From the NCBI RefSeq assembly GCF_004102725.1, contig NZ_LHQS01000002.1:797984-861983 (forward strand): DNA of 64,000 nucleotides, written 5' to 3'. Below the pieces are notes generated by a model. That model saw nothing but the letters and a program-made list of their open reading frames with translations, did no database searches and was not told the DNA's origin. This DNA is from Methanoculleus taiwanensis. Its GTDB lineage: Archaea; Halobacteriota; Methanomicrobia; Methanomicrobiales; Methanoculleaceae. The translations under genes and the position numbers were made by a program. Positions 37,984 to 50,293 of this stretch are shown here, in pieces. Each line of letters starts with the position of its first letter. Positions within the stretch are counted from its first letter, which is position 1.

Positions 37984-38409
37984 TTAGAGTATCGTCACTT
38001 CCAGAGCCGGCGGCATCAGCGCCGCGTCGATGGCATGGCAGATCCCGTTATCGCAGAACGCGTCCGCCTCGACGATGGGCACGCCGTTGACGGTGATTCC
38101 CTTATTGGACGAGCGGATCACAAGCTCGGTTCCGAGCAGCGACCGCACCGTTTCGACGGTGCGGAGGGTCTCGGAGGTCAGCGTCCCCGGGACGACGTGG
38201 TAGGCAAGGATAATGGTGATCGTATCGGTATCCGCCGTGATCTCCTTCATCCTCTCCTCCGAAACCCGTGCAAATGCGCTGTCGGTGGGGACAAAGACCG
38301 TATACGGCCCCTGGTTCGTAAGCCGGTTCTCCATCCCCGCTTCTTTTACCAGCTGTACAAATGTGGAAAAATCCCCCGAATCTTCCAGTGTTTCGAGAAT
38401 GCTCTTCAT
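37984..38409 (-). CDS. Fasciclin-domain protein 1
   Basis: 141 residues, a single fasciclin (FAS1) domain. H1 motif 'YTVFVPTDSAFARV', central 'ILAYHVVPGTLTSE' and H2 motif 'DNGICHAIDAALMPP' are all present. It has no signal peptide or anchor, so the protein may be cytoplasmic, which is unusual for this adhesion fold. A TATA element (38445-38453) and a GGGGGA ribosome site give it its own short transcript. First of five such genes. Confidence 0.9.
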   Translation of the reverse strand: MKSILETLEDSGDFSTFVQLVKEAGMENRLTNQGPYTVFVPTDSAFARVSEERMKEITADTDTITIILAYHVVPGTLTSETLRTVETVRSLLGTELVIRSSNKGITVNGVPIVEADAFCDNGICHAIDAALMPPALEVTIL

Positions 38410-38444
38410 GCCGCATATCCCCCATGCCCCTACCGTGAGGAGGG

Positions 38445-38453
38445 TATATAAAT
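38445..38453 (-). promoter_or_regulatory. Box A promoter of fasciclin gene 1
   Basis: ATTTATATA on the minus strand lies about 38 bases before the ATG, predicting a leader of about 15 bases. It sits between fasciclin genes 1 and 2, so gene 1 need not depend on readthrough. Confidence 0.6.
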
Positions 38454-38476
38454 CTAATTCCCCGCCTCCCCGGCGT

Positions 38477-38908
38477 TCACCGTGCGACGATCTCGGCCAT
38501 CGCCTGCATGAGCACGCCGTCGATGATATGGATCACCCCGTTGTCGCAGCCGATATTCCCCGTGACGATGCGTGCGTCGTTCACGCGGAACTCCTCGTCG
38601 ATGATCGAGACGTTGAGCTCGCTGCCCTGCAGCGTCTTGATCGTCGGATTGCGCATGCCGGGAACCTCCTCGAGCCGCAGCACCCCGACGACGATATGCC
38701 ACATGAGAACGTCGGCAAGCCGGTTCTTATTCTGTTTCAGGTCGTGCAGCGCCTCCCCCGAGAGGCTTTCAAAAGCGCCGTCCGTCGGGGCAAAGACGGT
38801 GAACGGGCCGCGATCGTTCAGCATTCCCTTCAGATCGGCTATCTCCACCAGGTTGACGAAGGTGTTCAGGTCTTCCGACTGCCGCAGTGTTTCAAGAATG
38901 GTTGCCAT
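38477..38908 (-). CDS. Fasciclin-domain protein 2
   Basis: 143 residues with one FAS1 domain: H1 'FTVFAPTDGAFESL', 'LMWHIVVGVLRLEE' in place of the usual YHVV core, and H2 'CDNGVIHIIDGVLM'. No signal peptide. A TATA-like AGTATATAC at 38954-38962 provides its own promoter. The altered middle motif marks it as more diverged than copies 1, 3 and 4. Confidence 0.9.
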   Translation of the reverse strand: MATILETLRQSEDLNTFVNLVEIADLKGMLNDRGPFTVFAPTDGAFESLSGEALHDLKQNKNRLADVLMWHIVVGVLRLEEVPGMRNPTIKTLQGSELNVSIIDEEFRVNDARIVTGNIGCDNGVIHIIDGVLMQAMAEIVAR

Positions 38909-38987
38909 GCTAAAACCCCCCCTTCCGGGAGTGGCTTTCAGATCCCCGCACCCGTATATACTTTGCCGGTGCCGTCAGGCGAGCCGC

Positions 38988-40550
38988 TCACAAGAGTTCG
39001 TTCCGCTGCAGGAACTCCCGGATCTTCCGGCTCTCGACCCATCCGGCATCGAGTTCGGTGATGTACCTGTTGACCCGTCTGACCTGTTCGCGGAACCGTT
39101 CGGCGGTCTCTTCATTCTCGAGCAGGTCGGCATGTGCCTGGATTACCTGAAGCGGATGGCGGATATGGTCGCCGAGGATGGCGAACTGCTCCATGTTCCG
39201 CTCGATCTGATCGAAAGCCCGCTGCCGGATCGCTTCCATGACCGTCCGGTCGGTCACATCGAGGATCTGGACTAAAAACCCCGTGATCGCGTCGGTCTCG
39301 CGGTCGATCACCGGACTTGTATAGATCTCGGCGGAGCGCGTCCCGGACTTCGTCGTCGCGTAAAGCCCCTGCTCCCGCGCGAGGCCGAGGTCGATGGTGA
39401 CGGTGGTATGCCCCCCTTCGCCGCGCCGGAGCCGGTTTTTCAGCAGTTCGGGGATGAACGGATCTTTGAAGATATTGTAGCCGTGCATGCCGTTCCTCCT
39501 CGGCACGCCGAGGATAGCAAGGCACGCCCGGTTGGTATGGAGCAGCCTGCCGGCGGTGTTGAAGTACTGGATGCCGACCGGGGATTCGTTGAAGATCCGC
39601 TTGAATCGCTCCCCGGTTCTCCGGAGTTCCGCTTCGAGTGTTTTCTGCCGGGTGATGTCGTGCACGATGCTATAGAGCAGGGTGCGTCCGCCGACGGCGA
39701 CAGGGGCTGAAAAGACCTCCACGGCACGGTTCTCACCGTTCGCGAGCCGGTGGTGAAAGACGAACTGCTCTCTCTCCCCACGCTGCGCCCGCTGCATCTC
39801 GCGAGGGACCTCTTCTGCGGGAAGCATATTCAGATCGCCGACCGTCATTTCGGTGATCCGGTCGTACGGGTACCCGTAGAAGGAGCAGGCCGCGGGATTT
39901 GCATCGACGATCGCTCCGGTCTCCGGGTCGACGACCAGCATGATCGCCCGGCTCTCGGTGAAGGTCATCCGGTAGCGCTCCTCGCTCTCCCGCAGCGCCT
40001 CCTCCGCCTGCTTCTGCGCGGTGATATCCTCCTGCATGCCGATGAGATACTGCATCTTTCCGGCGTCGTCCCTGATCACCGTCGCGGTCAGGCACACCAG
40101 AACGATCTCCCCCGCTTTCGTGAGATACCGTTTCTCCATCCGGTAGCCGTTCTTCTTCCCTGCGACGGCCTCGGCAAAGAGCGCGCTGTTCTCATCGATA
40201 TCGGCCGGGTGGGTAAAATCGGCGATCCGCATGCCCCGGAGTTCTTCTGCGGAGTAGCCGAGCATCCGCCGGAACGCCGGGTTCGACCGGACGACTCTCC
40301 AGTCCCGGTCTGTAAGGACGATCCCGATACCCGCCTCCTCAAAGATGCTCCGGAAGCACGCTTCGCTCTCCTGCCCGGCACGGAGCCGGTCGCATTCCTC
40401 TTCGGCGTTCCGGGCGCGTGCTTCGAGGGCTTCGAGATCGGCGGTGAGCAGATCGATGAGGCGGCGATCGGCCGTGCCGACCTTCCTCCGGAGTTCCTGC
40501 AGGGACGCGTGCATCTCTCCGGCCGGATAGTTCTCCACTGATTCACTCAT
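38988..40550 (-). CDS. Triple-PAS sensor protein with a DHp-like end and no ATPase domain
   Basis: 520 residues, no membrane segment. A coiled-coil N-terminus (about 15-60) precedes three PAS domains: one at about 65-185 ('FRSIFEEAGIGIVLTDRDW'), one at about 190-305 ('YRMTFTESRAIMLVVDPETG') and one at about 315-430 ('FKRIFNESPVGIQYFNTAGR'). PAC segments such as 'MQYLIGMQEDITAQKQAEEA' follow. The end resembles a histidine-kinase dimerisation helix, with 'GDHIRHPLQVIQAHADLLEN' carrying the H-x-x-R-x-P-L phosphoacceptor pattern, but the HATPase domain is absent and the protein stops naturally at 'REFLQRNELL'. ATG at 40550 has AGGA upstream. It lies within the fasciclin cluster. Confidence 0.85.
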   Translation of the reverse strand: MSESVENYPAGEMHASLQELRRKVGTADRRLIDLLTADLEALEARARNAEEECDRLRAGQESEACFRSIFEEAGIGIVLTDRDWRVVRSNPAFRRMLGYSAEELRGMRIADFTHPADIDENSALFAEAVAGKKNGYRMEKRYLTKAGEIVLVCLTATVIRDDAGKMQYLIGMQEDITAQKQAEEALRESEERYRMTFTESRAIMLVVDPETGAIVDANPAACSFYGYPYDRITEMTVGDLNMLPAEEVPREMQRAQRGEREQFVFHHRLANGENRAVEVFSAPVAVGGRTLLYSIVHDITRQKTLEAELRRTGERFKRIFNESPVGIQYFNTAGRLLHTNRACLAILGVPRRNGMHGYNIFKDPFIPELLKNRLRRGEGGHTTVTIDLGLAREQGLYATTKSGTRSAEIYTSPVIDRETDAITGFLVQILDVTDRTVMEAIRQRAFDQIERNMEQFAILGDHIRHPLQVIQAHADLLENEETAERFREQVRRVNRYITELDAGWVESRKIREFLQRNELL

Positions 40551-40791
40551 CGGTATTCCTCGTGATCCCCTGCGCCGCCGGGAGATCGGCATCCCGGCAG
40601 GCAGAACCCCGGGTGTGCGCCTTTCGATCAGATCTGCCTCGTCTCATCCTGCAACCCGATGCCACTACAGTATGTTCGGCAGATGCGGACGATAATGATT
40701 TCCATCGGGTGTGCAGGTGATGGTTCCCGACGGCTCTTCCGGTGCTCGTAAAAAGGAGGGTAATCGCTCAGGCCGGGCGGTCGGTTCAGAC

Positions 40792-41220
40792 CTATCGTAC
40801 AATCCGGGCTTCCGCCACACACGGGATCAGCACCGTATCGATGATGTGGCAGATACCGTTGCTGCCCTCGATATCGCTCTCGATTATCCGTGCGTTGTTC
40901 ACCCTGAGAACTCCTTCAGAGGCTTCGATATCGACGTGATCGCCCAGGAGCGTCTTGATCGACTCCATCGTCTGCAGTTCCTGGCTCGTCAGTTTGCCGG
41001 AGACGACATGGTAGGAGAGGATAGCAATCAGCCTCCGGCGATTCGCGAGGAGTTCGTCGAGCAGCCCCTCCGGCATCTTCGAGAACGCTTCGTCCGCCGG
41101 AGCAAAGAGGGTATACCGCCCCTCACCGGCGAGGGTCGTATCCATACCGGCCGCCGCAATCGCACGCACGAGGGTGGTGAGCCTCGCGTCCTCCTGTGCA
41201 GTCTCGATAATATTCTTCAT
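40792..41220 (-). CDS. Fasciclin-domain protein 3
   Basis: 142 residues, one FAS1 domain: 'YTLFAPADEAFSKM', 'ILSYHVVSGKLTSQ' and 'SNGICHIIDTVLIP'. No signal peptide. I place the start at 41220 (second of two nearby ATGs) because GGAGGA is 7 bases upstream of it and only one base from the first. The sequence 'MKNIIETA' at the start is shared with copy 4, pointing to a recent duplication. Its promoter is the TATA element at 41259-41270. Confidence 0.9.
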   Translation of the reverse strand: MKNIIETAQEDARLTTLVRAIAAAGMDTTLAGEGRYTLFAPADEAFSKMPEGLLDELLANRRRLIAILSYHVVSGKLTSQELQTMESIKTLLGDHVDIEASEGVLRVNNARIIESDIEGSNGICHIIDTVLIPCVAEARIVR

Positions 41221-41258
41221 CTTCATTCCTCCAGGGACGGGACTGCCTCTCTCTTGCC

Positions 41259-41270
41259 ATATACTATATA
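41259..41270 (-). promoter_or_regulatory. Box A promoter of fasciclin gene 3
   Basis: TATATAGTATAT on the minus strand lies about 40-50 bases before the ATG of fasciclin gene 3. Confidence 0.6.
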
Positions 41271-41403
41271 ATGGCTTCTGATGCGTGCCGGACGGGTGAT
41301 CTGCACGCCCCTCCGCGAAGGGCGGTCCTGGGTTCCGGCTCCACAGGCGACCGACCTGTACCAAAAAAGGTCCCGGAAGGTAAGTCTCCCCCGGGATGCT
41401 TCC

Positions 41404-41832
41404 TTACCGCTGTGCCGGAACTTCGGCTTTCTTCGGGACGAGAACCGAATCGATGACGTGGCAGACACCGTTTGTGCATTCGATATCGGTCTCGGTGATC
41501 CGTGCGTTGTTCACCCGGACCGTTCCCTGCGAGGTGTCGATCGTGAGACTGTCCCCCTCAAGCGTCTGGATCGAGTTCTGCTGGGTGACGTCCGATGCCA
41601 TCATCTTCCCGGAGACGACGTGGTACTTCAGAATCGCAGAGAGCTGCTCTTTGTCGCTCAGGATACTGTTCAGCTGGTCTTTCGGGATCTGGTTGAATGC
41701 CCCGTTCGTCGGTGCGAAGACCGTGAACGGCCCCTGGTTGCTCAGAGTCTCGGTCAGGCCCGCCGCATCGATTGCTTTCAGGAGCGTGTTGAACCGCCCG
41801 TCGTCTTTTGCCGTTTCAATAATGTTCTTCAT
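41404..41832 (-). CDS. Fasciclin-domain protein 4
   Basis: 142 residues, the most canonical copy: 'FTVFAPTNGAFNQI', 'ILKYHVVSGKMMAS' and 'CTNGVCHVIDSVLVP'. No signal peptide. Close relative of copy 3. The ATG at 41832 follows a G-rich leader (GGGGGTTACC), and a TATA element (TATTAAATAT, 41876-41885) lies about 45 bases upstream. Confidence 0.9.
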   Translation of the reverse strand: MKNIIETAKDDGRFNTLLKAIDAAGLTETLSNQGPFTVFAPTNGAFNQIPKDQLNSILSDKEQLSAILKYHVVSGKMMASDVTQQNSIQTLEGDSLTIDTSQGTVRVNNARITETDIECTNGVCHVIDSVLVPKKAEVPAQR

Positions 41833-42011
41833 GGTGGTAACCCCCCTCGGGTCGGGTGGTTCCTGCACAGTCGGGATATTTAATACCTTGCCTGGATTTC
41901 AGAACGGTCACCCGGCTGCGGTAGAATTGGGTACGCGGCTCTTATGAGGTCTTTCGGAATACTGGGTGTCGGGGGAGAACCCCCGTGATGAGGCGATGCC
42001 TGCCGGCGGTC

Positions 42012-42458
42012 TTACTCTCCGGTCTTGGCGTAGGCCTCGTACGCCTGCGAGAGCGTGGCGAACGGAACCTTGTCGACGACGTGGATGATGCCGTTGTCGG
42101 CCTCTTTGTTCTCCTCGATGACCTTTGCGGTCTCCACCATATACCCTTCGCTGGTCTTCTGCACCTCGATCGTGTTCCCTTCGACGGTCTGTAAGATCTT
42201 CCTGTCCGCAAGGTCGGCTATCTCGTACTTGTGCTCCCCGATCTGCATGAAGTCGAAGAGGTGCCAGAGCATCTGTTTGTCGTTTAAGATCATCGAGCGG
42301 TTCGGTTCAGGGATCTCATCGAACGCGGAATCGACCGGCGCGAAGAGCGTCATCGGGCCTTCGCTCCGGAGCGTCTCCTCTTTGTCGATAAACGCGACGA
42401 TCTCGAGGAATCTCCCGAACCGTCCGTCATCCTGTAAAATCTCAAAGATATTCGCCAT
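42012..42458 (-). CDS. Fasciclin-domain protein 5
   Basis: 148 residues; H1 'MTLFAPVDSAFDEI' and H2 'ADNGIIHVVDKVPF' are clear, but the YHVV core is replaced by 'LWHLFDFMQIGEHKYE', so it is the most diverged of the five. No signal peptide. GGAGGACCTGGT precedes the ATG at 42458, which decides the start. Confidence 0.88.
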   Translation of the reverse strand: MANIFEILQDDGRFGRFLEIVAFIDKEETLRSEGPMTLFAPVDSAFDEIPEPNRSMILNDKQMLWHLFDFMQIGEHKYEIADLADRKILQTVEGNTIEVQKTSEGYMVETAKVIEENKEADNGIIHVVDKVPFATLSQAYEAYAKTGE

Positions 42459-42497
42459 ACCAGGTCCTCCTGTGAGTGCCGGGCTTTCCTGGTACGT

Positions 42498-42511
42498 CAT
42501 TATATATATGG
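42498..42511 (-). promoter_or_regulatory. Box A promoter of fasciclin gene 5
   Basis: CATATATATAATG on the minus strand is one of the strongest TATA elements of the window and lies about 45 bases before the ATG, predicting a leader of 15-20 bases carrying GGAGG. Confidence 0.65.
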
Positions 42512-42581: not shown

Positions 42582-43157
42582 CTAGCGGGGCGCCTGTCTC
42601 TCTATGTACTGCTGCAGCAGGTCGAGCGCCTCCAGCTCACGGGCGCCGCCGCACTTCCTGACGAGGCCTGCATGGTGCCCGATGAGATCGCCAAGCCACG
42701 GATCGCCCGTCCTGACGTAGCGGGTGGCGTGCACCGTGGCGTCCACGATGCTGTTGAACCCCCGGTTCACCGGGTGCAGGCGGAGCGATACGACCTCCTC
42801 GCGGAGCGGTGTGAGGCGGACGACGTGAGCCTCGCTGCTCGACCGCTCGACCGCCGCGTCGAACGCGATCCAGGCCTCGGCGTCGGCGAGGCGCTGCATC
42901 ATCCGCCCGCAGACCTCCTCTTCGAGAAAAGCCTCTTTCGGGAGATCGTCAAAGGCCGTTCTGACGTAGAGCACCGGGTCGTAGACGAAGTTCGCCACGA
43001 TCCATCCGTCCCGCACGACGTTCTCGGCGGTGTGGCTGCCGCGGAAGAGCACCATGTGGGGGCTCGCTCCCCTGCAGATGATACCCATCGGCGCTGCGTT
43101 GCCGCGGGTGGTCGCGATAACCTCGTTGATCCCTTCAGTCAGCAGTCCCACTGCCAT
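42582..43157 (-). CDS. DUF447 family protein
   Basis: 191 residues starting 'MAVGLLTEGINEVIATTRGN' and including 'SPHMVLFRGSHTAENV', 'WIVANFVYDPVLYVRTAF' and 'LHPVNRGFNSIVDATVHATR', the pattern of DUF447 with its flavin-reductase-like barrel. To my knowledge the family is restricted mainly to methanogens and organisms with the tetrahydromethanopterin pathway, where it is linked to cofactor synthesis; no reaction is assigned with certainty. The start at 43157 (GGGAGGG upstream) overlaps the CitG-like gene by 19 bases, so the two are coupled. Confidence 0.82.
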   Translation of the reverse strand: MAVGLLTEGINEVIATTRGNAAPMGIICRGASPHMVLFRGSHTAENVVRDGWIVANFVYDPVLYVRTAFDDLPKEAFLEEEVCGRMMQRLADAEAWIAFDAAVERSSSEAHVVRLTPLREEVVSLRLHPVNRGFNSIVDATVHATRYVRTGDPWLGDLIGHHAGLVRKCGGARELEALDLLQQYIERQAPR

Positions 43158-43960
43158 CCCTCCCCGAGGGCGACGTAGATCGCCGCGATGGTGATATCGG
43201 CGATGGAACCCGGATTGATACCGGCGACGATGCACTCGGCGTCGAGAGCCGCGATGTCCCGCTCCCCCCGAACGACCTCCCGTGCATGTTCCATCGTCCG
43301 GACGGCGACTTCGTAGCCGTGCTTCTTTGCGATGAAGGTGTCGGGCTCTGCTGCGAGGAGGTGCATGAACGCCTGCACGATCGCCTGCCGCCCGCACCCG
43401 TGCTCGTGCAGGAGATCGGCGCCGCGGCGGGTCAGGCGGTAGCCGTTCGTCCACTCCCGGGCGACCATATCGCTGCGGCTCGAGTACTCCATGATGTCGA
43501 GCAGGGTCATCCCCCGCTCGCGGATCGCCCGGATCGACTCGGGGTCGTTCACGTCGAGTTCGTCGTCGCTGCCCATCCGGACTGCCGTAAGAGCGAAGGC
43601 GGCGTAAAAGTCGATCGCATCCTCGACATCCGTCTCCCGGATCGCCGCAAGGGCGCCCTCCAGCCCGTCGCCGAGGAGCAGGGGGACGAGCAGGATATAG
43701 GCGCCGAAATGCGTGTTGCCGCCGGCATGACCGCTCGTGAGTCGGACGGCCTCCCTGATCAGGGAGCCGATCCGCCCGTCCCCGTGCTCCGCCCGCTCGA
43801 AGGCGGGCCGGACGAAGATCGTGGAGGCGAGGAAGTGTTCGAGCCGGGTATCGGCGTAGTCGTGGCAGCGGTCGACGTTCCCGGGTTTCGGGTAGGCAGA
43901 GACCTCCAGCATCATCGCGAGCTGGGCGCGTTCAGACCGTGTCAGCGGCAGATCCGTCAT
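43139..43960 (-). CDS. Triphosphoribosyl-dephospho-CoA synthase (CitG)-like protein
   Basis: 273 residues. 'EVSAYPKPGNVDRCHDYADT' (S-x-K-P-G-x-V) and 'LTSGHAGGNTHFGAYILLVP' (G-x-x-x-N-T-x-x-G) are the CitG ATP-binding segments; 'CIVAGINPGSIADITIAAIY' is the conserved GxxPGSxAD motif near the end. In methanogens, which lack citrate lyase, this family is believed to serve C1-cofactor synthesis instead. Overlaps the marker 9 gene by 29 bases and DUF447 by 19, so three genes form one tight unit. Confidence 0.85.
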   Translation of the reverse strand: MTDLPLTRSERAQLAMMLEVSAYPKPGNVDRCHDYADTRLEHFLASTIFVRPAFERAEHGDGRIGSLIREAVRLTSGHAGGNTHFGAYILLVPLLLGDGLEGALAAIRETDVEDAIDFYAAFALTAVRMGSDDELDVNDPESIRAIRERGMTLLDIMEYSSRSDMVAREWTNGYRLTRRGADLLHEHGCGRQAIVQAFMHLLAAEPDTFIAKKHGYEVAVRTMEHAREVVRGERDIAALDAECIVAGINPGSIADITIAAIYVALGEGWQWDC

Positions 43961-45068
43961 CGAACAACCTGTGCATTATCTTATCGGAAAGCCGGTGTTT
44001 GTAGCGCATATAGTCCTGAATCGAGATGCCCATCTTCTGGAGCGTCATATTCCGGAACATGCAGGGCGAACTCGCCTTGCAGCACCACGCGAGGCTGCCG
44101 AAACAGGTGCTGTTCCCTTCGGCGAGCGGCGTGCCCTTCACCGCCTCCTGCTTGAACTTCACGTAGTCGTCGCGGGTGAGGCCGATCTTCTCGAGCATCG
44201 GAATGAGCGGACAGTTCTTGACCGGCATGCAGCAGAACGTCAGCGACCTGATGTCTCCGCCGCGGCAGAGCTGTTTCGGGGCGTTGTACCAGCCGTTTTC
44301 GTCGGCGGACCGGGTTATCGCCGCATCGAGACCGGAGAGCGTCCACGTATCGGAACCCCGCGCCAGGGAGACGAGGTCTGCGCCGCGGGCGAAGAGATCC
44401 ATTGCTTTATCGAAGGTGGTGATACCGTTGTTGGCGATGAGGGTCAGCGGGCAGGCGTTCCGGATCTGGCGGAGTTTCTGGTGCCCGAAGTCCATCAGGT
44501 CGACGTGCAGGATATCGGCGCCCGCCTTCCAGCAGGTGCGGGCGAGGGCGCGGTCGTCGGCGGCGACGCCGGCGCGGATCTTCACCGAGACGGTCACCCC
44601 GGCCGCCTTGAGTGCGCGGATCGTCTCGGTGAGGGCTTGCGGGTGGTGCAGCAGGTACTCCCCGCACCCCGCCTCGACCATGGCAGGCTGCCTGCAGTGC
44701 GCGTCGATCTCGTAGACGACGCTCTCCTCGAACGCCTCTGCGATCTCCCGGTATGCCGCGGGCGTGCTGCCGCGGAGGTTGATGCCGGGCACGACGTCGC
44801 TCTTCTCCAGAAGTTTGATCTGACGCCCGAGCTCCTCCACCGGGTCGTCGTAGAGAAATTCCCGTCGCCCCTGACGAGCCAGTTCCTCGCTTGCGTCGAG
44901 TGTCCGGCGATCGATGGAGTAGCCTCCGATGAACGCCGCTCCTATGTGGTCTGCGCGTTCGAGCACATAGGCCGCATCCACGATCCCCGCCATGGACGCA
45001 ATCGCAATCGGCGTTTTAACAATTCGATCGTTTATGACGAGCTCAAAACGATCATACGCTTCCATCAT
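43932..45068 (-). CDS. Methanogenesis marker protein 9 (dihydroorotate/dihydrouridine-synthase-like)
   Basis: 378 residues. The N-terminal two thirds form a TIM barrel ('TPIAIASMAGIVDAAYVLER', 'VVPGINLRGSTPAAY', 'VSVKIRAGVAADDR', 'TLIANNGITTFDKAMDLFAR'); the C-terminus is cysteine-rich ('TFCCMPVKNCPLIPMLEKI' and 'CFGSLAWCCKASSPCMF'), probably binding an Fe-S cluster. This combination marks methanogenesis marker 9, found in methanogens but without a proven reaction. Start at 45068; an adjacent ATG is at 45065. It is divergent from cfbA across a 240-base shared regulatory region. Confidence 0.88.
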   Translation of the reverse strand: MMEAYDRFELVINDRIVKTPIAIASMAGIVDAAYVLERADHIGAAFIGGYSIDRRTLDASEELARQGRREFLYDDPVEELGRQIKLLEKSDVVPGINLRGSTPAAYREIAEAFEESVVYEIDAHCRQPAMVEAGCGEYLLHHPQALTETIRALKAAGVTVSVKIRAGVAADDRALARTCWKAGADILHVDLMDFGHQKLRQIRNACPLTLIANNGITTFDKAMDLFARGADLVSLARGSDTWTLSGLDAAITRSADENGWYNAPKQLCRGGDIRSLTFCCMPVKNCPLIPMLEKIGLTRDDYVKFKQEAVKGTPLAEGNSTCFGSLAWCCKASSPCMFRNMTLQKMGISIQDYMRYKHRLSDKIMHRLFDDGSAADTV

Positions 45069-45308
45069 GATTCCATATGGTTTTGTGCTCCAGGGAGAAA
45101 TGATTTTGTATCCGGACTCCAACTGACGGGGGCACCGGATACGCGGGAGAGTGCGTTTCGCTCTTTTAACGTCGCCGATCCCGACGCAGGCCCCCATCCC
45201 TGCGGGAGTCCTCCACGCGAGACTCAAGCCGCCCGGGCATGCTTTTCCCCTTCTCCGGAAGACCAATCGGTAATTATTTTAACGGGGTGTCGTTGTACCT
45301 TTTGTTAT
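45069..45308. promoter_or_regulatory. Divergent promoter region between marker 9 and cfbA
   Basis: 240 bases between divergent starts. AATTATTTTAACG (45270-45282) is the likely box A of cfbA, about 30 bases before its ATG, so the cfb transcript would be nearly leaderless. On the other strand GATACAAAATC (45100-45110) is a candidate for the marker 9 operon. Shared regulation of both cofactor units is plausible. Confidence 0.5.
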
Positions 45309-45710
45309 ATGAGTAAGAAAGGAATGTTACTGGTCGGCCACGGAAGCAAGCTCCCCCACAACAAGGAACTGATCGAGACGACGGCACAGCTCATCGCCGA
45401 GCGGTCCGACGAGTACATCGTCAAGCCCGGTTTCATGAGCCTCAACACGCCGAGCGTCGCGGATCAGCTCGAGGCGTTCCGGAGCGAAGATATCGAGATG
45501 CTCGTCGTGGTGCCGCTCTTCCTCGCAAAAGGCGTCCACATCAACCAGGATATCCCCGAGATCATCGGCCTTGCACCGGGCACCCGGAAGGGCACCTTCC
45601 AGAAGAACGGCACGTCCATCCCGCTCGTCTACGCTGACCCCATCGGCAGCGACCCTCTGCTCGCCGAACTGATGCTGAAAAACGCAGAAGACGCTGCACG
45701 CCTGGTATAA
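45309..45710 (+). CDS. cfbA: Sirohydrochlorin nickelochelatase CfbA
   Basis: 133 residues, the short CbiX type. 'MLLVGHGSKLPHNKEL' holds the N-terminal metal-site histidine, and 'VVVPLFLAKGVHINQDIPEI' the second histidine. It inserts nickel into sirohydrochlorin, the first step towards coenzyme F430. The homologous short CbiX can also insert cobalt, but the following cfbE, cfbD and cfbB genes fix the assignment. Confidence 0.93.
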   Translation: MSKKGMLLVGHGSKLPHNKELIETTAQLIAERSDEYIVKPGFMSLNTPSVADQLEAFRSEDIEMLVVVPLFLAKGVHINQDIPEIIGLAPGTRKGTFQKNGTSIPLVYADPIGSDPLLAELMLKNAEDAARLV

Positions 45711-45717
45711 CACCCGT

Positions 45718-46899
45718 ATGAGAGTCCTGGTGCTCGACACCATCCACGGCGGCGCCGAGATCGCCCGGGCGGCCCGGGCCGCCGGACACCAGGTGGACGA
45801 GGTGGACGTCTACCGGGGTGAGGCGGGGATCCCGGTCGCGGAAGCCCTTCGCCGGAGGTACGACCTCGTGACCGCCCCGGTGCACCTCGACCCCGATCAT
45901 CCCCTTCTCCGGCACCACGGGGCCGCTCTCTCGCACCACGAGGCGGTGCGGCTGCTCCTCGAGGGCAGGCTGCCCCGCCCCATGATCGAGATCACCGGCT
46001 CCCGCGGGAAGACCACGACGGCGCACGCTCTCGCGCACCTGATGGCCGGGTCGGGGATTCTCCACACCTCTTCCGGCACCCGGCAGTATCCCGAGAACCG
46101 GATCCTCTGGCAGAAGAGTATCACGCCGGCATCGGTCATCGCCGCCGCGGATGCCGCGAGGGAGTGCGACGGCTGGCTGATCGCGGAGGAGTCGCTCGGG
46201 GTGACCGGGGCAGGGGACGTCGCGGTGCTGACGAGCGCCGACGACTATCCCGTCGCCGCCGGGAAGAAACAGGCGCTCGCCGAGAAATGCCGCTCGCTTC
46301 GCCGGGCGAAGACCGTGGTGGCGCCGCCCGGCGTCGCTATACCGGGCCCGACCGTCGTTTCGACGGACGAGGCGATGTCCTGCTCGGGCACGACCCTCCG
46401 CTACGACTACAGCGGCATCACCGGCGCGTTTACAAACCCGCTCTGCAGCCTCGCCGGCTACGCGCTCCCGCTCGCGCTCGCGGCGACGACCGCCTGCGTC
46501 CTCGGGATTGACCCCGCCCCGCTCGCCGGGTTCGCCGCCCTTCCCGGCAGGATGGCGACGCGGATCGAGGACGGCATTCTCATCGTCGACAACGCGAACA
46601 GCGGCACCAACGTCGCGACGACCGTCGAAGCCGCCCGGTACGCCCGCCGCCTCTCGGGGAACGATCCGGTCACCCTGGTCATCGGGGTGCTCGCACAGAC
46701 TGTCTGCGAGGGGTTCCCGGCAGAGGAGATCGGGCGTGCCGTCGGGCTCGTCCGGCCCGAGCACGTCGTCTATGCCGGAGAGGAGTGGCTCGCGAGCAAC
46801 AAACCGCATACGGCGGCCGATCTGACCGAAGGGCTCCGGGTAGCCCGTTCCCTGACCCGACGCGGGAGCATCGTGCTCGCCGTCAAGACATGGAGATAG
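45718..46899 (+). CDS. cfbE: Coenzyme F430 synthetase CfbE
   Basis: 393-residue Mur-ligase-like protein. The ATP loop is 'IEITGSRGKTTTAHALAHLM' (about 91-110), and the C-terminal ligase domain has 'RMATRIEDGILIVDNANSGT'. CfbE closes the carbocyclic ring of F430 from seco-F430 with ATP. It follows cfbA by 7 bases and precedes cfbD by 6, so all are cotranscribed. Length is normal for the family. Confidence 0.9.
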   Translation: MRVLVLDTIHGGAEIARAARAAGHQVDEVDVYRGEAGIPVAEALRRRYDLVTAPVHLDPDHPLLRHHGAALSHHEAVRLLLEGRLPRPMIEITGSRGKTTTAHALAHLMAGSGILHTSSGTRQYPENRILWQKSITPASVIAAADAARECDGWLIAEESLGVTGAGDVAVLTSADDYPVAAGKKQALAEKCRSLRRAKTVVAPPGVAIPGPTVVSTDEAMSCSGTTLRYDYSGITGAFTNPLCSLAGYALPLALAATTACVLGIDPAPLAGFAALPGRMATRIEDGILIVDNANSGTNVATTVEAARYARRLSGNDPVTLVIGVLAQTVCEGFPAEEIGRAVGLVRPEHVVYAGEEWLASNKPHTAADLTEGLRVARSLTRRGSIVLAVKTWR

Positions 46900-46905
46900 A
46901 GATCT

Positions 46906-47970
46906 ATGCACTACATTCAACCAAGGCCGAGCTCGATCGTGGCGGCGCTCTACACCGCACGCGACCTCGGGGTCGACGTCGCCGTCCTGCACGGGCCGTC
47001 GGGCTGCTCGTTTAAACACGCCCGGCTCCTCGAGGAGGACGGGATGCGTGTCCTGACCACTTCGCTCGCCGACAACGAGTTCATCTTCGGCGGCCAGGAG
47101 GCGCTCGAGCGGGTGCTCCGCTACGCCGAAGAGAACTTCTCGCCCCACCGCATCGCGGTCGTCGGCACCTGCGTCGCGATGATCATCGGCGAGGATCTCC
47201 CGTCGGCTATCCGCGACTCCGGGATCACGACGCCGGCGATAGCGATCGATATCCACGCTGGCTACCGCGAGAATATCGAAGGGGTCATCGCGACCCTCGA
47301 ACCGGCGGCTGCGGCAGGCTGGATCAGCGAGGACGAACTCGCCCGGCAGCGCCACCTCCTTGCGAAGGCGAACGAGGTCGAGCGGCTCCGCGGAGCGGCC
47401 TGCAAGACGTACATCGAACCCTCCCGGGGCGATCTCAAGCACGTCGCGGCCGGGAGGCTCCTCGAACTCGCCCGTTCCGGCGCCCGGGGCGTCGCGATCA
47501 TGAACGCCAAGAAAGAGACCGCCTACATGTTCGCCGACGAGCTCGTCGCGCTCCACGACGCCTGCCCGGAGGCGGACGTCACCTACATCGCGAACCTCGA
47601 GGATAGGGGCCTTCCGAAGGTGCGGGAGGACGGCGCCCGGATCCTCGCCGGGATGCAGGGCCGCGGCGTCGACCCCGAGCTCCTCGGGGCGCTCGACGAG
47701 TACGGGGCGAACGGCACCGCTATCGGCGAGCGGCTCCGCGCCCTCTCCCCGGACTACGCCCTCATCGTCGGGGTGCCGCACGCCGTTCCGCCGGAGTATA
47801 CCGAAGGGATCGAGGTCATCTCGATCACGAACGGCCCCCGGCAGGTCGAGCCGCTCCGCGATATCGGCCACGCCCACGTGGTGGTCGAGGTCGACCTCCA
47901 CCCGAAGACCCTCGGCGTCCGCGAGATCGTCGAGAGTGAGTTCGGCGCCGTGCTGCGGAGCCTCGTATGA
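46906..47970 (+). CDS. cfbD: Ni-sirohydrochlorin a,c-diamide reductive cyclase subunit CfbD
   Basis: 354 residues, a nitrogenase-component-1-like (NifD/NflD) protein. Cluster and substrate region cysteines are at 'VLHGPSGCSFKHARLLEEDG' and 'RIAVVGTCVAMIIGEDLPSA'. It receives electrons from the NifH-like CfbC and reduces the Ni-tetrapyrrole to 15,17(3)-seco-F430. CfbC is not encoded in this window. The stop overlaps the cfbB start by ATGA. Confidence 0.92.
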   Translation: MHYIQPRPSSIVAALYTARDLGVDVAVLHGPSGCSFKHARLLEEDGMRVLTTSLADNEFIFGGQEALERVLRYAEENFSPHRIAVVGTCVAMIIGEDLPSAIRDSGITTPAIAIDIHAGYRENIEGVIATLEPAAAAGWISEDELARQRHLLAKANEVERLRGAACKTYIEPSRGDLKHVAAGRLLELARSGARGVAIMNAKKETAYMFADELVALHDACPEADVTYIANLEDRGLPKVREDGARILAGMQGRGVDPELLGALDEYGANGTAIGERLRALSPDYALIVGVPHAVPPEYTEGIEVISITNGPRQVEPLRDIGHAHVVVEVDLHPKTLGVREIVESEFGAVLRSLV

Positions 47971-49340
47971 AGACGTTCCTGGTCGCCGGAGACCGGTCGG
48001 GGAGCGGGAAGACGAGCATCACGCTCGCCCTTTCAGCCCTCCTTGCGCGGGAGCGGGAGGTGCAGACCTTTAAGGTCGGGATGGACTATATCGATCCCTC
48101 CTACCTCACCGGCGTCACCGGCCGGCCGTGCCGGAACCTGGACGGCTACGTGATGACCCCGGAAGAGAGCCGCATGGTCTTCGATCACGGCTGCCGGGGT
48201 GCGGACACGGCCGTCGTCGAAGGCGTCCGGGGACTCTTCGAGGGCGCAGAAGCGCTCACCGATCTCGGGAGCACGGCGGGGATCGCAAAACAGCTCGATC
48301 TTCCCGTCATTCTCGTCATCAACGCCCGGAGCATCACCCGGAGCGCGGCCGCGATCGTGAAAGGCTTTATGGCCTTCGATCCAAACGTCCGGATCAAGGG
48401 CGTCATCCTAAACAACATCACCGGGAGCCGCCACCGCGAGAAAGCGGTCGCCGCGGTCGAGCACTACTGCGGTATCCCGGTCGTCGGCACCATCCCCCGC
48501 ACCGAGGAGATGGAGCTCGCGATGCGCCACCTCGGGCTCGTCCCCTACCGCGAGGGGACGGAACACGATGCATTCCACCGGCGGATCGACCTGATCACGG
48601 AGAAGATCGGCGAACACGTCGACCTCGGCCTTCTCGAAGAGCTCGCCGAGGACCGTGCGCCGCCGGGCGAGCCGGAGGCCTTCTTCGCGGCGCCCGAGCC
48701 CGACATCCGGATCGGCGTCGCCCTCGACGAGGCGTTCAACTTCTACTACTCGGACCTCTTCGACGTCCTCGCCGCCGTCGGGGCAAAGGTCGTCCCCTTC
48801 TCACCGATCCACGATTCCTTGCCCGAGGCGGACGGCTACATCCTCGGCGGGGGCTACCCGGAGCTCTTCGGCCCCGAACTCGAGGCGAACACATCCCTCA
48901 GCGAGGCGCTCCGCGAGGAGTCCCGGCGGGGCACGCCGATCTACGCCGAGTGCGGCGGGCTTATCTACCTCACGGAACGGCTCGTCCTCAAACCCGGGTT
49001 CCAGGGCTCGGAGCAGCAGCAGGTCTACGATATGGCCGGCGTCTTTCCGGGCGAGACCCGGATGCCCTCCCGGCGGATGCTCGGCTACGTTGTCGGGACG
49101 AGCGATGCGGCAAGCCCCCTCGGGGCGGCGGCCTTCAAGGGGCACGAGTTCCACTACAGCGACGTCCGGCTTGGGGACGGGGTGCGCTACGCCTACCGCC
49201 TCTCCCGGGGCGGCGGGATCGAGGGCGGCCTTGACGGGGCTGTCGTCGACCGGACGCTCGGGAGCTATACCCATCTCCACCCGGTGACGAGCCGGGGAAT
49301 GTTTTCGCATTTCGCGGATCAGTGCCGCACCCGGAACTGA
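47967..49340 (+). CDS. cfbB: Ni-sirohydrochlorin a,c-diamide synthase CfbB
   Basis: 457 residues. The N-terminal P-loop amidoligase domain has 'LVAGDRSGSGKTSITLALSA' and 'FKVGMDYIDPSYLTGVTGRP'; the C-terminal class I glutaminase domain has the catalytic cysteine in 'IYAECGGLIYLTERLVL' and histidines in 'FKGHEFHYSDV' and 'SYTHLHPVTSRGMFSHFADQ'. It amidates the a and c side chains of Ni-sirohydrochlorin. CbiA (cobyrinate diamide synthase) is the alternative, but the operon context favours CfbB. Confidence 0.93.
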   Translation: MKTFLVAGDRSGSGKTSITLALSALLAREREVQTFKVGMDYIDPSYLTGVTGRPCRNLDGYVMTPEESRMVFDHGCRGADTAVVEGVRGLFEGAEALTDLGSTAGIAKQLDLPVILVINARSITRSAAAIVKGFMAFDPNVRIKGVILNNITGSRHREKAVAAVEHYCGIPVVGTIPRTEEMELAMRHLGLVPYREGTEHDAFHRRIDLITEKIGEHVDLGLLEELAEDRAPPGEPEAFFAAPEPDIRIGVALDEAFNFYYSDLFDVLAAVGAKVVPFSPIHDSLPEADGYILGGGYPELFGPELEANTSLSEALREESRRGTPIYAECGGLIYLTERLVLKPGFQGSEQQQVYDMAGVFPGETRMPSRRMLGYVVGTSDAASPLGAAAFKGHEFHYSDVRLGDGVRYAYRLSRGGGIEGGLDGAVVDRTLGSYTHLHPVTSRGMFSHFADQCRTRN

Positions 49341-49417: not shown

Positions 49418-50293
49418 ATGCTGTATATGATCATCTATCTTGACGGCAGCTATGTTCCCGAGGCGGAGGCGAAGATCTCGGTCTTCGACCACGGCCTGCT
49501 CTACGGGGACGGTGTTTTTGAGGGCATCCGCGCCTATAACGGGAAGATCTTCCGGCTGGAGGCGCACCTCGAGCGGCTCTACGACTCGGCCAAAACGCTC
49601 GACATGCAGGTCCCGATCTCCCGTGAGGAGATGACCGAGGTCATCAAAGAGACGCTCCGGAAGAACAATCTCCGCGACGCCTACATCCGCCCGGTCGTCA
49701 CCCGCGGCAAGGGCGACCTCGGCCTCGACCCCCGCAAGTGCCCGAAGCCGACCGTAATCGTCATTGCGGTCTCGTGGGGCGCGATGTACGGCGATCTCTA
49801 CGAGAAAGGCCTCAAGGCGGTCACGGTCTCGGTGCGGCGGACGCCGGCGGAGTCGATGCCCCCGAACGTCAAGAGCTTAAACTACCTGAACAATATCCTC
49901 GCCAAGATCGAGGCGAACTACAAGGGCGGCGACGAAGCGATCTTCTTCGACACGAACGGCTACGTCTCGGAGGGCTCGGGCGACAATATCTTCGTCGTCA
50001 AGAACGGCGAGATCATCACGCCGCCGACCCTGAACAACCTGCGCGGGATCACCCGGCTGGTCGTCCTCGAGATCGCCCGCTCGCTCGGGATCACGGTCCG
50101 GGAGCAGAACCTCGGCTACTACGATCTCTACTCCGCCGACGAGGTCTTCGTGACGGGAACGGCGGCTGAAGTCGCCCCGATTCGCGATATCGACGGCCGT
50201 GTCATCGGTACCGGCAAGCCAGGCCCCATCACCCGGCAGATGATGGCGGCCTTCAAGCACGTGACCGAGACGGAAGGCACGCCGATAGAGTGA
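49418..50293 (+). CDS. ilvE: Branched-chain amino acid aminotransferase
   Basis: 291-residue class IV PLP aminotransferase. '[20 protein letters not shown]' is the family signature near the N-terminus, the PLP lysine is in '[17 protein letters not shown]', and '[20 protein letters not shown]' plus '[19 protein letters not shown]' complete the cofactor site. It carries out the last step of Ile, Leu and Val synthesis with glutamate as donor. AGGTG stands 4 bases before the first ATG; another ATG lies three codons later. Confidence 0.93.

Follow-up and report, generated by a model that had tools for sequence, protein, structure and literature searches.

We examined a 64,000-nucleotide stretch of the Methanoculleus taiwanensis genome (assembly GCF_004102725.1, contig NZ_LHQS01000002.1, positions 797,984 to 861,983 of the forward strand), hereafter the window, in which three overlapping genes, encoding a methanogenesis marker 9 protein, a CitG-like protein and a DUF447 protein, lie head-to-head with the cfbA-E-D-B operon for coenzyme F430. 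This trio is probably a biosynthesis operon for tetrahydromethanopterin (H4MPT, methanopterin) that adjoins the F430 operon and works apart from it, with enzyme activities that we infer below. Open reading frame (ORF) calling and hidden Markov model scans of the window proteins identified the genes of the locus and confirmed the arrangement described in an earlier note on this DNA, an overlapping trio divergent from the cfb genes across 240 bp. The features of the locus are:

42582-43157, minus strand: DUF447, a proposed flavin enzyme in H4MPT side-chain synthesis (PF04289 and PF20766)
43139-43960, minus strand: CitG-like, a proposed ATP-dependent ribosyl transferase in H4MPT side-chain synthesis (PF01874, 230.6 bits vs. 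cut-off 27)
43932-45068, minus strand: marker 9, methanogenesis marker 9 protein (TIGR03277, 157.6 bits vs. cut-off 96.2)
45069-45308, no strand: divergent intergenic region, 240 bp (start-to-start gap between marker 9 and cfbA)
45269-45299, plus strand: conserved cfbA-upstream element (TATA-like stretch and GTnnTACC; one site genome-wide)
45309-45710, plus strand: cfbA, sirohydrochlorin nickelochelatase (NF033198, 149.1 bits vs. cut-off 120)
45718-46899, plus strand: cfbE, coenzyme F430 synthase (NF033197, 345 bits vs. cut-off 250)
46906-47970, plus strand: cfbD, Ni-sirohydrochlorin a,c-diamide reductive cyclase subunit (TIGR03282, 497.2 bits vs. cut-off 268.4)
47967-49340, plus strand: cfbB, Ni-sirohydrochlorin a,c-diamide synthase (NF033195, 638.4 bits vs. 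cut-off 560)

From the ORF coordinates, marker 9 and the CitG-like gene overlap by 29 nt, and the CitG-like gene and DUF447 by 19 nt. Among the best 80 of 425 matches, the closest relatives of marker 9 are from Methanomicrobiales, Methanoculleus among them (87% for Methanoculleus sp. FWC-SCC1). These 80 are the named loci used below, and all are titled as this order or as Euryarchaeota close to the window protein.

A CitG-DUF447 core and its neighbours

Our survey set consisted of 196 genomes of the phylum, each at least 90% complete and searched per family; methanogens of other phyla were represented by named control genomes only. Adjacency counts drew on all 90 marker-9 and all 114 CfbD rows over cut-off, on 150 of the 189 DUF447 genomes and 150 of the 188 CitG genomes, and on 66 rows for the stand-alone barrel. 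CitG and DUF447 were same-strand neighbours in 114 of the 127 genomes with both listed, in most families and in many genomes without methyl-coenzyme M reductase (MCR), while marker 9 and CitG were adjacent in 86/89. The CitG-like and DUF447 genes form a conserved core, and marker 9 is joined to it in nearly every genome that has marker 9.

The distribution of the core runs with H4MPT biosynthesis and does not follow CfbD or MCR. MptG, the RFAP synthase, is the first committed enzyme of H4MPT biosynthesis; it was found in 192 of the 196 genomes (181 over cut-off), DUF447 in 189 and CitG in 188, compared with 120 for CfbD (114 over cut-off) and 95 for marker 9 (90 over cut-off). Among the 82 genomes without over-cut-off CfbD, CitG was present in 77 and DUF447 likewise in 77. 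The earlier note had DUF447 tracking with methanogens, which is wrong, as the family is nearly universal in the phylum and was found in the Haloferax and Sulfolobus controls as well. MptG, CitG and DUF447 are jointly absent from three haloarchaea-like genomes of two genera (G008, G049 and G104; hypergeometric P about 1e-4, uncorrected for kinship). Natural losses of methanogenesis are also informative. The available part of one report (PMC11176372) describes Met12 as non-methanogenic and without Mcr, Mtr and CfbA-E. The Met12-like genome in our set, G006, has no CfbD, McrA or marker 9 and retains CitG, DUF447, MptG and Mch. A second genome, G128, lacks McrA and CfbD, yet retains the whole trio, near which it has a TIGR00284 gene and an AfpA-like gene.

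Known H4MPT genes recur around the core, although at the window itself the neighbour is cfb. For proximity to DmrX (TIGR02700, the dihydromethanopterin reductase family) and to the TIGR00284 dihydropteroate synthase-like gene, we counted all 34 over-cut-off DmrX rows and 71 of the 145 over-cut-off TIGR00284 genomes. In 18/34, DmrX and DUF447 share a strand and are no more than 2.5 kb apart, with DmrX directly after DUF447 in Methanosarcina-like genomes; four families have the TIGR00284 gene no more than 3.8 kb from CitG and DUF447. Families f7, f16, f19 and f24 each include one genome in which a TIGR00284 gene and either DmrX or AfpA are found near the pair or trio. Bacteria provide a further set of neighbourhoods: 26 plasmid records matched the window CitG query, from which we took 13 bacterial plasmid regions and Natrinema; a plasmid search with the DUF447 query gave no match. 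All 13 bacterial regions hold MptG and mch, 11 hold DUF6513 and AfpA, eight hold DUF447 and none holds marker 9 or cfb, and those that are annotated are a formaldehyde-oxidation island.

These regions can be compared with the methylotroph islands in the literature. For Methylosinus trichosporium, the portion of PMC3615186 that was available gives two H4MPT islands, mch-orf5-orf7-fae1-orf17 and orf19-orf20-afpA-orf21-orf22. In methylotroph islands, the CitG-like gene sits between RimK and fae, beside mch, and DUF447, DUF6513, AfpA, an aldolase and MfnB are grouped; judging by gene order, CitG-like would be Orf7 of Methylosinus and DUF447 would be Orf19. The archaeal trio and the methylotroph islands thus have DUF447, CitG, AfpA/DmrX and the dihydropteroate synthase-like gene in common, whereas the islands have no marker 9 and their CitG does not adjoin DUF447. 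We assign the trio to H4MPT biosynthesis because the CitG-DUF447 core is adjacent across most of the phylum, occurs without F430 genes and sits by H4MPT genes in both archaea and bacteria.

Two further genes were seen near the module. A PHP-domain phosphoesterase-type gene occurs there in five families (L043:10900-11562, L061:6633-7307, L063:11072-11740, L050:6920-7552); in L043, L061 and L063 it is flanked by DmrX and the TIGR00284 gene and is read from the other strand. It is a candidate for a phosphate-removing step. CofD, of F420 biosynthesis, is a few genes from CitG-DUF447 in families f7, f11, f19 and f22 and in Natrinema (L043, L062, L063, L071, L004).

Adjacency to the F430 operon

The earlier note took the head-to-head arrangement with cfb as a sign that the trio may produce or alter a cofactor that works alongside F430. 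In a neighbourhood survey, the adjacency proved instead to be limited to this order, an outcome that the earlier note had itself counted against its reading. The survey compared genomes in which marker 9 and CfbD both score over cut-off: the two units are head-to-head within 5 kb in 38/42 genomes of the order and in 0/47 others, where they lie on separate contigs, at 8-31 kb from each other, or far apart. The four exceptions inside the order all come from one genus (family f3, g14), which has kept the trio and not the cfb neighbour. In the named loci, cfbA is upstream on the opposite strand in 69/80 (68 within 2 kb); ten of the others are cut off upstream and one is without cfbA. Since the arrangement holds in 38/42 genomes inside the order and in none outside it, the adjacency of trio and cfb is an order-level feature and not a sign of shared function. 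The CfbA-E operon is a physical neighbour of the trio within the order, with no link to it by distribution or by neighbourhood beyond the order. The order-specific nature of the adjacency guards against reading it as a functional link.

CfbD occurs without over-cut-off marker 9 or a stand-alone copy of its C-terminal domain in 20 genomes (14 of f10, five of f9 and one of f15; G098, one of the 20, has a broken weak hit), among them the MCR-bearing G005, G019, G052, G053, G073, G077 and G111. This count leaves out G127, where the CitG-DUF447 contig ends, and four genomes with the stand-alone domain. We reject a link between the trio and F430 on the distribution, the neighbourhood beyond the order and the natural losses. 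What survives of the earlier proposal is a cofactor-biosynthesis module; the part that tied it to F430 is not supported, in view of the CfbD-less genomes with CitG and DUF447, the bacterial H4MPT islands without cfb, these 20 CfbD genomes without marker 9, and G128.

The intergenic region had also been proposed to hold a divergent promoter that co-regulates both units. In 72 loci, the gap between marker 9 and cfbA spans 131 to 2324 bp, and in 34 of them a gene running in the same direction as marker 9 occupies the gap up to the marker-9 start. Its product matches the Pfam Hjc family (Holliday-junction resolvases) weakly, yet above cut-off (23.8 vs. 21.1 bits), and some copies are fragmented. 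A tblastn search of the window found no trace of this gene, and the 240 bp are what remains there. Because the Hjc-like gene intervenes in 34/72 relatives, a shared divergent promoter is not ancestral.

The conserved element was found in 36/73 cfbA upstream sequences, vs. 2/79 marker-9 upstream sequences and 4/400 random windows of the same loci. At three or fewer mismatches, it has a single site genome-wide, and none in a reversed control. It is present in just half of the cfbA upstream regions. The divergent cfb operon thus has an upstream element of its own. Neither the 240-bp region nor the upstream sequences of relatives pointed to a shared control site. On the variable gap, the intervening gene and the near absence of the element on the marker-9 side, we reject a shared divergent promoter, and the co-regulation suggested earlier is improbable. 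Downstream of cfbB, a class IV aminotransferase gene (IlvE-like) at 49418-50293 recurs in that position in families f1, f2, f5 and f6 of the order.

Proteins of the trio and a proposed chemistry

The CitG-like protein is a clear member of PF01874 (E 3.8e-68), and its closest solved chain is 3h9p (E 3.2e-37). In an alignment of 12 sequences including E. coli CitG, the lysine-glycine and PG..AD positions are common to all, and the N..G and D positions largely so; within the CitG family alignment, 27 positions are conserved in at least 22/24 sequences. The window protein thus largely shares the motifs KPGxV, NTxxG, D and PGxxAD with the triphosphoribosyl-dephospho-coenzyme A (CoA) synthases CitG and MdcB, which work with CitX and MdcG. 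It falls far short of their equivalog cut-offs, however (33.8 vs. 272.3 bits for CitG, 24.9 vs. 282.35 bits for MdcB), and E. coli CitG has a GAH segment after KPGLVDR that the window family does not have. No citrate lyase or malonate decarboxylase genes were found among the window neighbours scanned. Given the common motifs and the missing GAH segment, the CitG-like protein seems to have kept the nucleotide side and altered the acceptor side.

The ribitol of H4MPT bears an alpha-ribofuranosyl phosphate. CitG is thought to carry out an inverting transfer on dephospho-CoA; inversion from a beta-nucleoside such as ATP gives an alpha bond, and inversion from phosphoribosyl pyrophosphate (PRPP), itself alpha, gives a beta bond. 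As the H4MPT bond is alpha, we prefer ATP over PRPP as the likely donor of the CitG-like enzyme, and a reaction of the CitG type for this step. The enzyme would take the ribosyl group from ATP, expel adenine and build the side chain's alpha-(1->5) ribofuranosyl bond.

DUF447 scores over the gathering threshold for both of its domains (PF04289, 104.7 vs. 24 bits; PF20766, 54.7 vs. 24.8 bits) and has solved relatives in 2nr4 (E 7.5e-37), 2iml, 2ptf and 3b5m, of which the first three presumably bind flavin mononucleotide (FMN). The simplest and most likely use for such a protein would be a flavin-type reduction in the H4MPT side chain, e.g. opening of the ribofuranose ring to ribitol.

Marker 9 consists of a TIM barrel of the dihydroorotate dehydrogenase (DHODH) and dihydrouridine synthase (Dus) type (approximately residues 1-257), followed by a C-terminal eight-cysteine domain (approximately 258-372). 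Its AlphaFold2 model has a pLDDT of 92.9. Residues 1-275 match dihydropyrimidine dehydrogenase (DPD; Z 25.2, root-mean-square deviation (rmsd) 3.0, 260 aligned) and DHODHs (Z ~24), and marker 9 matches DusB with Z 23.2 over 214 residues (rmsd 2.7). Cys125 aligns with Cys100 of E. coli DusB; family f21, with its reduced barrel, has lost it. The eight cysteines form two C..CC..C sets and are invariant in 21/21 aligned sequences, four of which come from proteins with no other domain. The two four-cysteine sets suggest putative Fe-S clusters. Modelled alone, the domain reaches a pLDDT of 87.3. It returned no Foldseek match at E <= 0.001 and a best VIA-align Z of 3.1, which is not proof of a new fold. 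Four genomes of f12 and f18, all bearing MCR, have stand-alone copies of about 150-200 residues (L075:8083-8535, L167, L168 and L169); some of these genomes have several McrA copies. With a flavin barrel and a cysteine-rich, presumably Fe-S, domain, marker 9 might be an accessory redox protein of the operon, which is a guess.

Several steps of H4MPT biosynthesis are unassigned, and the available part of a review (PMC3087415) estimates seven unknown proteins of the pathway in Methanothermobacter. Our literature search found no reaction assigned to marker 9, DUF447 or the CitG relative in H4MPT synthesis; its coverage was incomplete, and the link may already be in print. Tentatively, and with more doubt than attaches to the pathway assignment, we suggest that the trio could supply missing chemistry. 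The CitG-like enzyme might make the alpha-(1->5) bond from ATP and so leave a 5''-triphosphate activated for coupling to 2-hydroxyglutarate, the CitG/CitX logic applied to a pterin. Reductive opening of the ribofuranose to ribitol might fall to DUF447, alone or together with marker 9, and the eight-cysteine domain could be an undescribed Fe-S or metal fold that feeds the redox step. With the proposal for CitG-like and DUF447, two families of unknown function become enzymes that can be tested in methanogens and methylotrophs alike.

Weighing the alternatives and flanking genes

The order barrel-CitG-DUF447 is found in 13 haloarchaea-like genomes; the annotated example is Natrinema (also L069 and L004). 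Here the barrel belongs to the MJ0144 family (TIGR00736) and resembles that of the trio in its AHCRQ motif and gene order. In the two haloarchaeal sequences read, the motif is kept and the eight-cysteine domain is absent, and the window marker 9 scores 122.8 bits on TIGR00736 vs. a cut-off of 218.7. The haloarchaea-like families have neither over-cut-off TIGR00284 nor F430 genes, yet carry this module. In the part of PMC8305020 that was available, haloarchaea are held to use folate and to be without methanopterin-specific enzymes.

Several observations weigh against the H4MPT assignment, or at least against too simple a form of it. Mch was found in all 39 haloarchaea-like genomes tested, including the three without MptG, CitG and DUF447. 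Because these three still have Mch, the module is not required for Mch in haloarchaea-like genomes, and we reject the idea that haloarchaea make H4MPT for Mch; the haloarchaeal module must make a product that Mch does not need. CitG and DUF447 are non-adjacent in 12 family f10 genomes with both listed; in bacteria they share an island without being neighbours, and 5/13 regions gave no DUF447. MptG and TIGR00284 are distant from the trio in the genome that the window comes from. The weakest point is the role of marker 9. CfbD, which serves here as a proxy for MCR, is present in 89/90 genomes with over-cut-off marker 9, which places marker 9 closer to MCR than to H4MPT, and the Met12-like genome lost marker 9 while it kept its H4MPT genes. 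Most MCR organisms have marker 9 and some do not; it is not named in Table 5 of PMC4153887 in the portion of that source available.

The strongest rival therefore splits the operon by function, with CitG and DUF447 serving H4MPT and marker 9, through its eight-cysteine domain, riding in the operon while serving MCR or Mtr (activation, maturation, or metal or electron supply). Its near-complete co-occurrence with CfbD, its loss along with MCR in the Met12-like genome, the constancy of the eight cysteines where the f21 barrel loses its catalytic-type cysteine, and the stand-alone domains in MCR-bearing genomes all speak for such a split. We nevertheless consider it rather unlikely, as G128 keeps marker 9 without McrA or CfbD, 20 CfbD genomes (MCR-bearing ones among them) have neither marker 9 nor the stand-alone domain, marker 9 adjoins CitG almost throughout, and a haloarchaeal barrel homologue occupies the same place in the gene order. 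It is less probable still that the product of the core is not H4MPT itself but another ribosylated pterin or an F420-type compound, with H4MPT as one end use. The CofD-type neighbours would fit such a product, as would a module kept in haloarchaea-like genomes without over-cut-off TIGR00284 and a Mch independent of it, whereas MptG and mch in 13/13 bacterial CitG islands, and the joint loss of MptG, CitG and DUF447 from the same three haloarchaea-like genomes, argue for H4MPT.

Marker 9 and its haloarchaeal relatives might instead be tRNA dihydrouridine synthases with no cofactor role, given the FMN-type Dus barrel, the DusB-like position of Cys125 and the fold match to DusB. This is improbable: marker 9 scores 26.0 bits vs. 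a DusB equivalog cut-off of 293.3, DPD and DHODH folds are equally close, the eight-cysteine domain stands in place of the Dus C-terminal part, the barrel is degenerate in f21, and the operon with CitG is conserved. Least probable of all, to the point that we give it very little weight, is the idea of a cofactor used with F430 and co-regulated from the divergent region. The head-to-head arrangement in most genomes of the order and in 68/80 named loci within 2 kb would favour it, against which stand its absence beyond the order, the CitG and DUF447 genes of CfbD-less genomes, the Hjc-like gene, and the lack of the cfbA-upstream element on the marker-9 side in 77/79. The assignment of the trio to H4MPT biosynthesis remains our preferred reading.

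Beyond DUF447, the minus strand of the window from 37984 to 42500 holds five short successive ORFs with a fasciclin-like look. One of them, 42012-42500, matches PF02469 (E 9.3e-23), and the rest were judged by eye. The row is broken by a large ORF at 38988-40592, which by eye appears to encode a PAS-type sensor.

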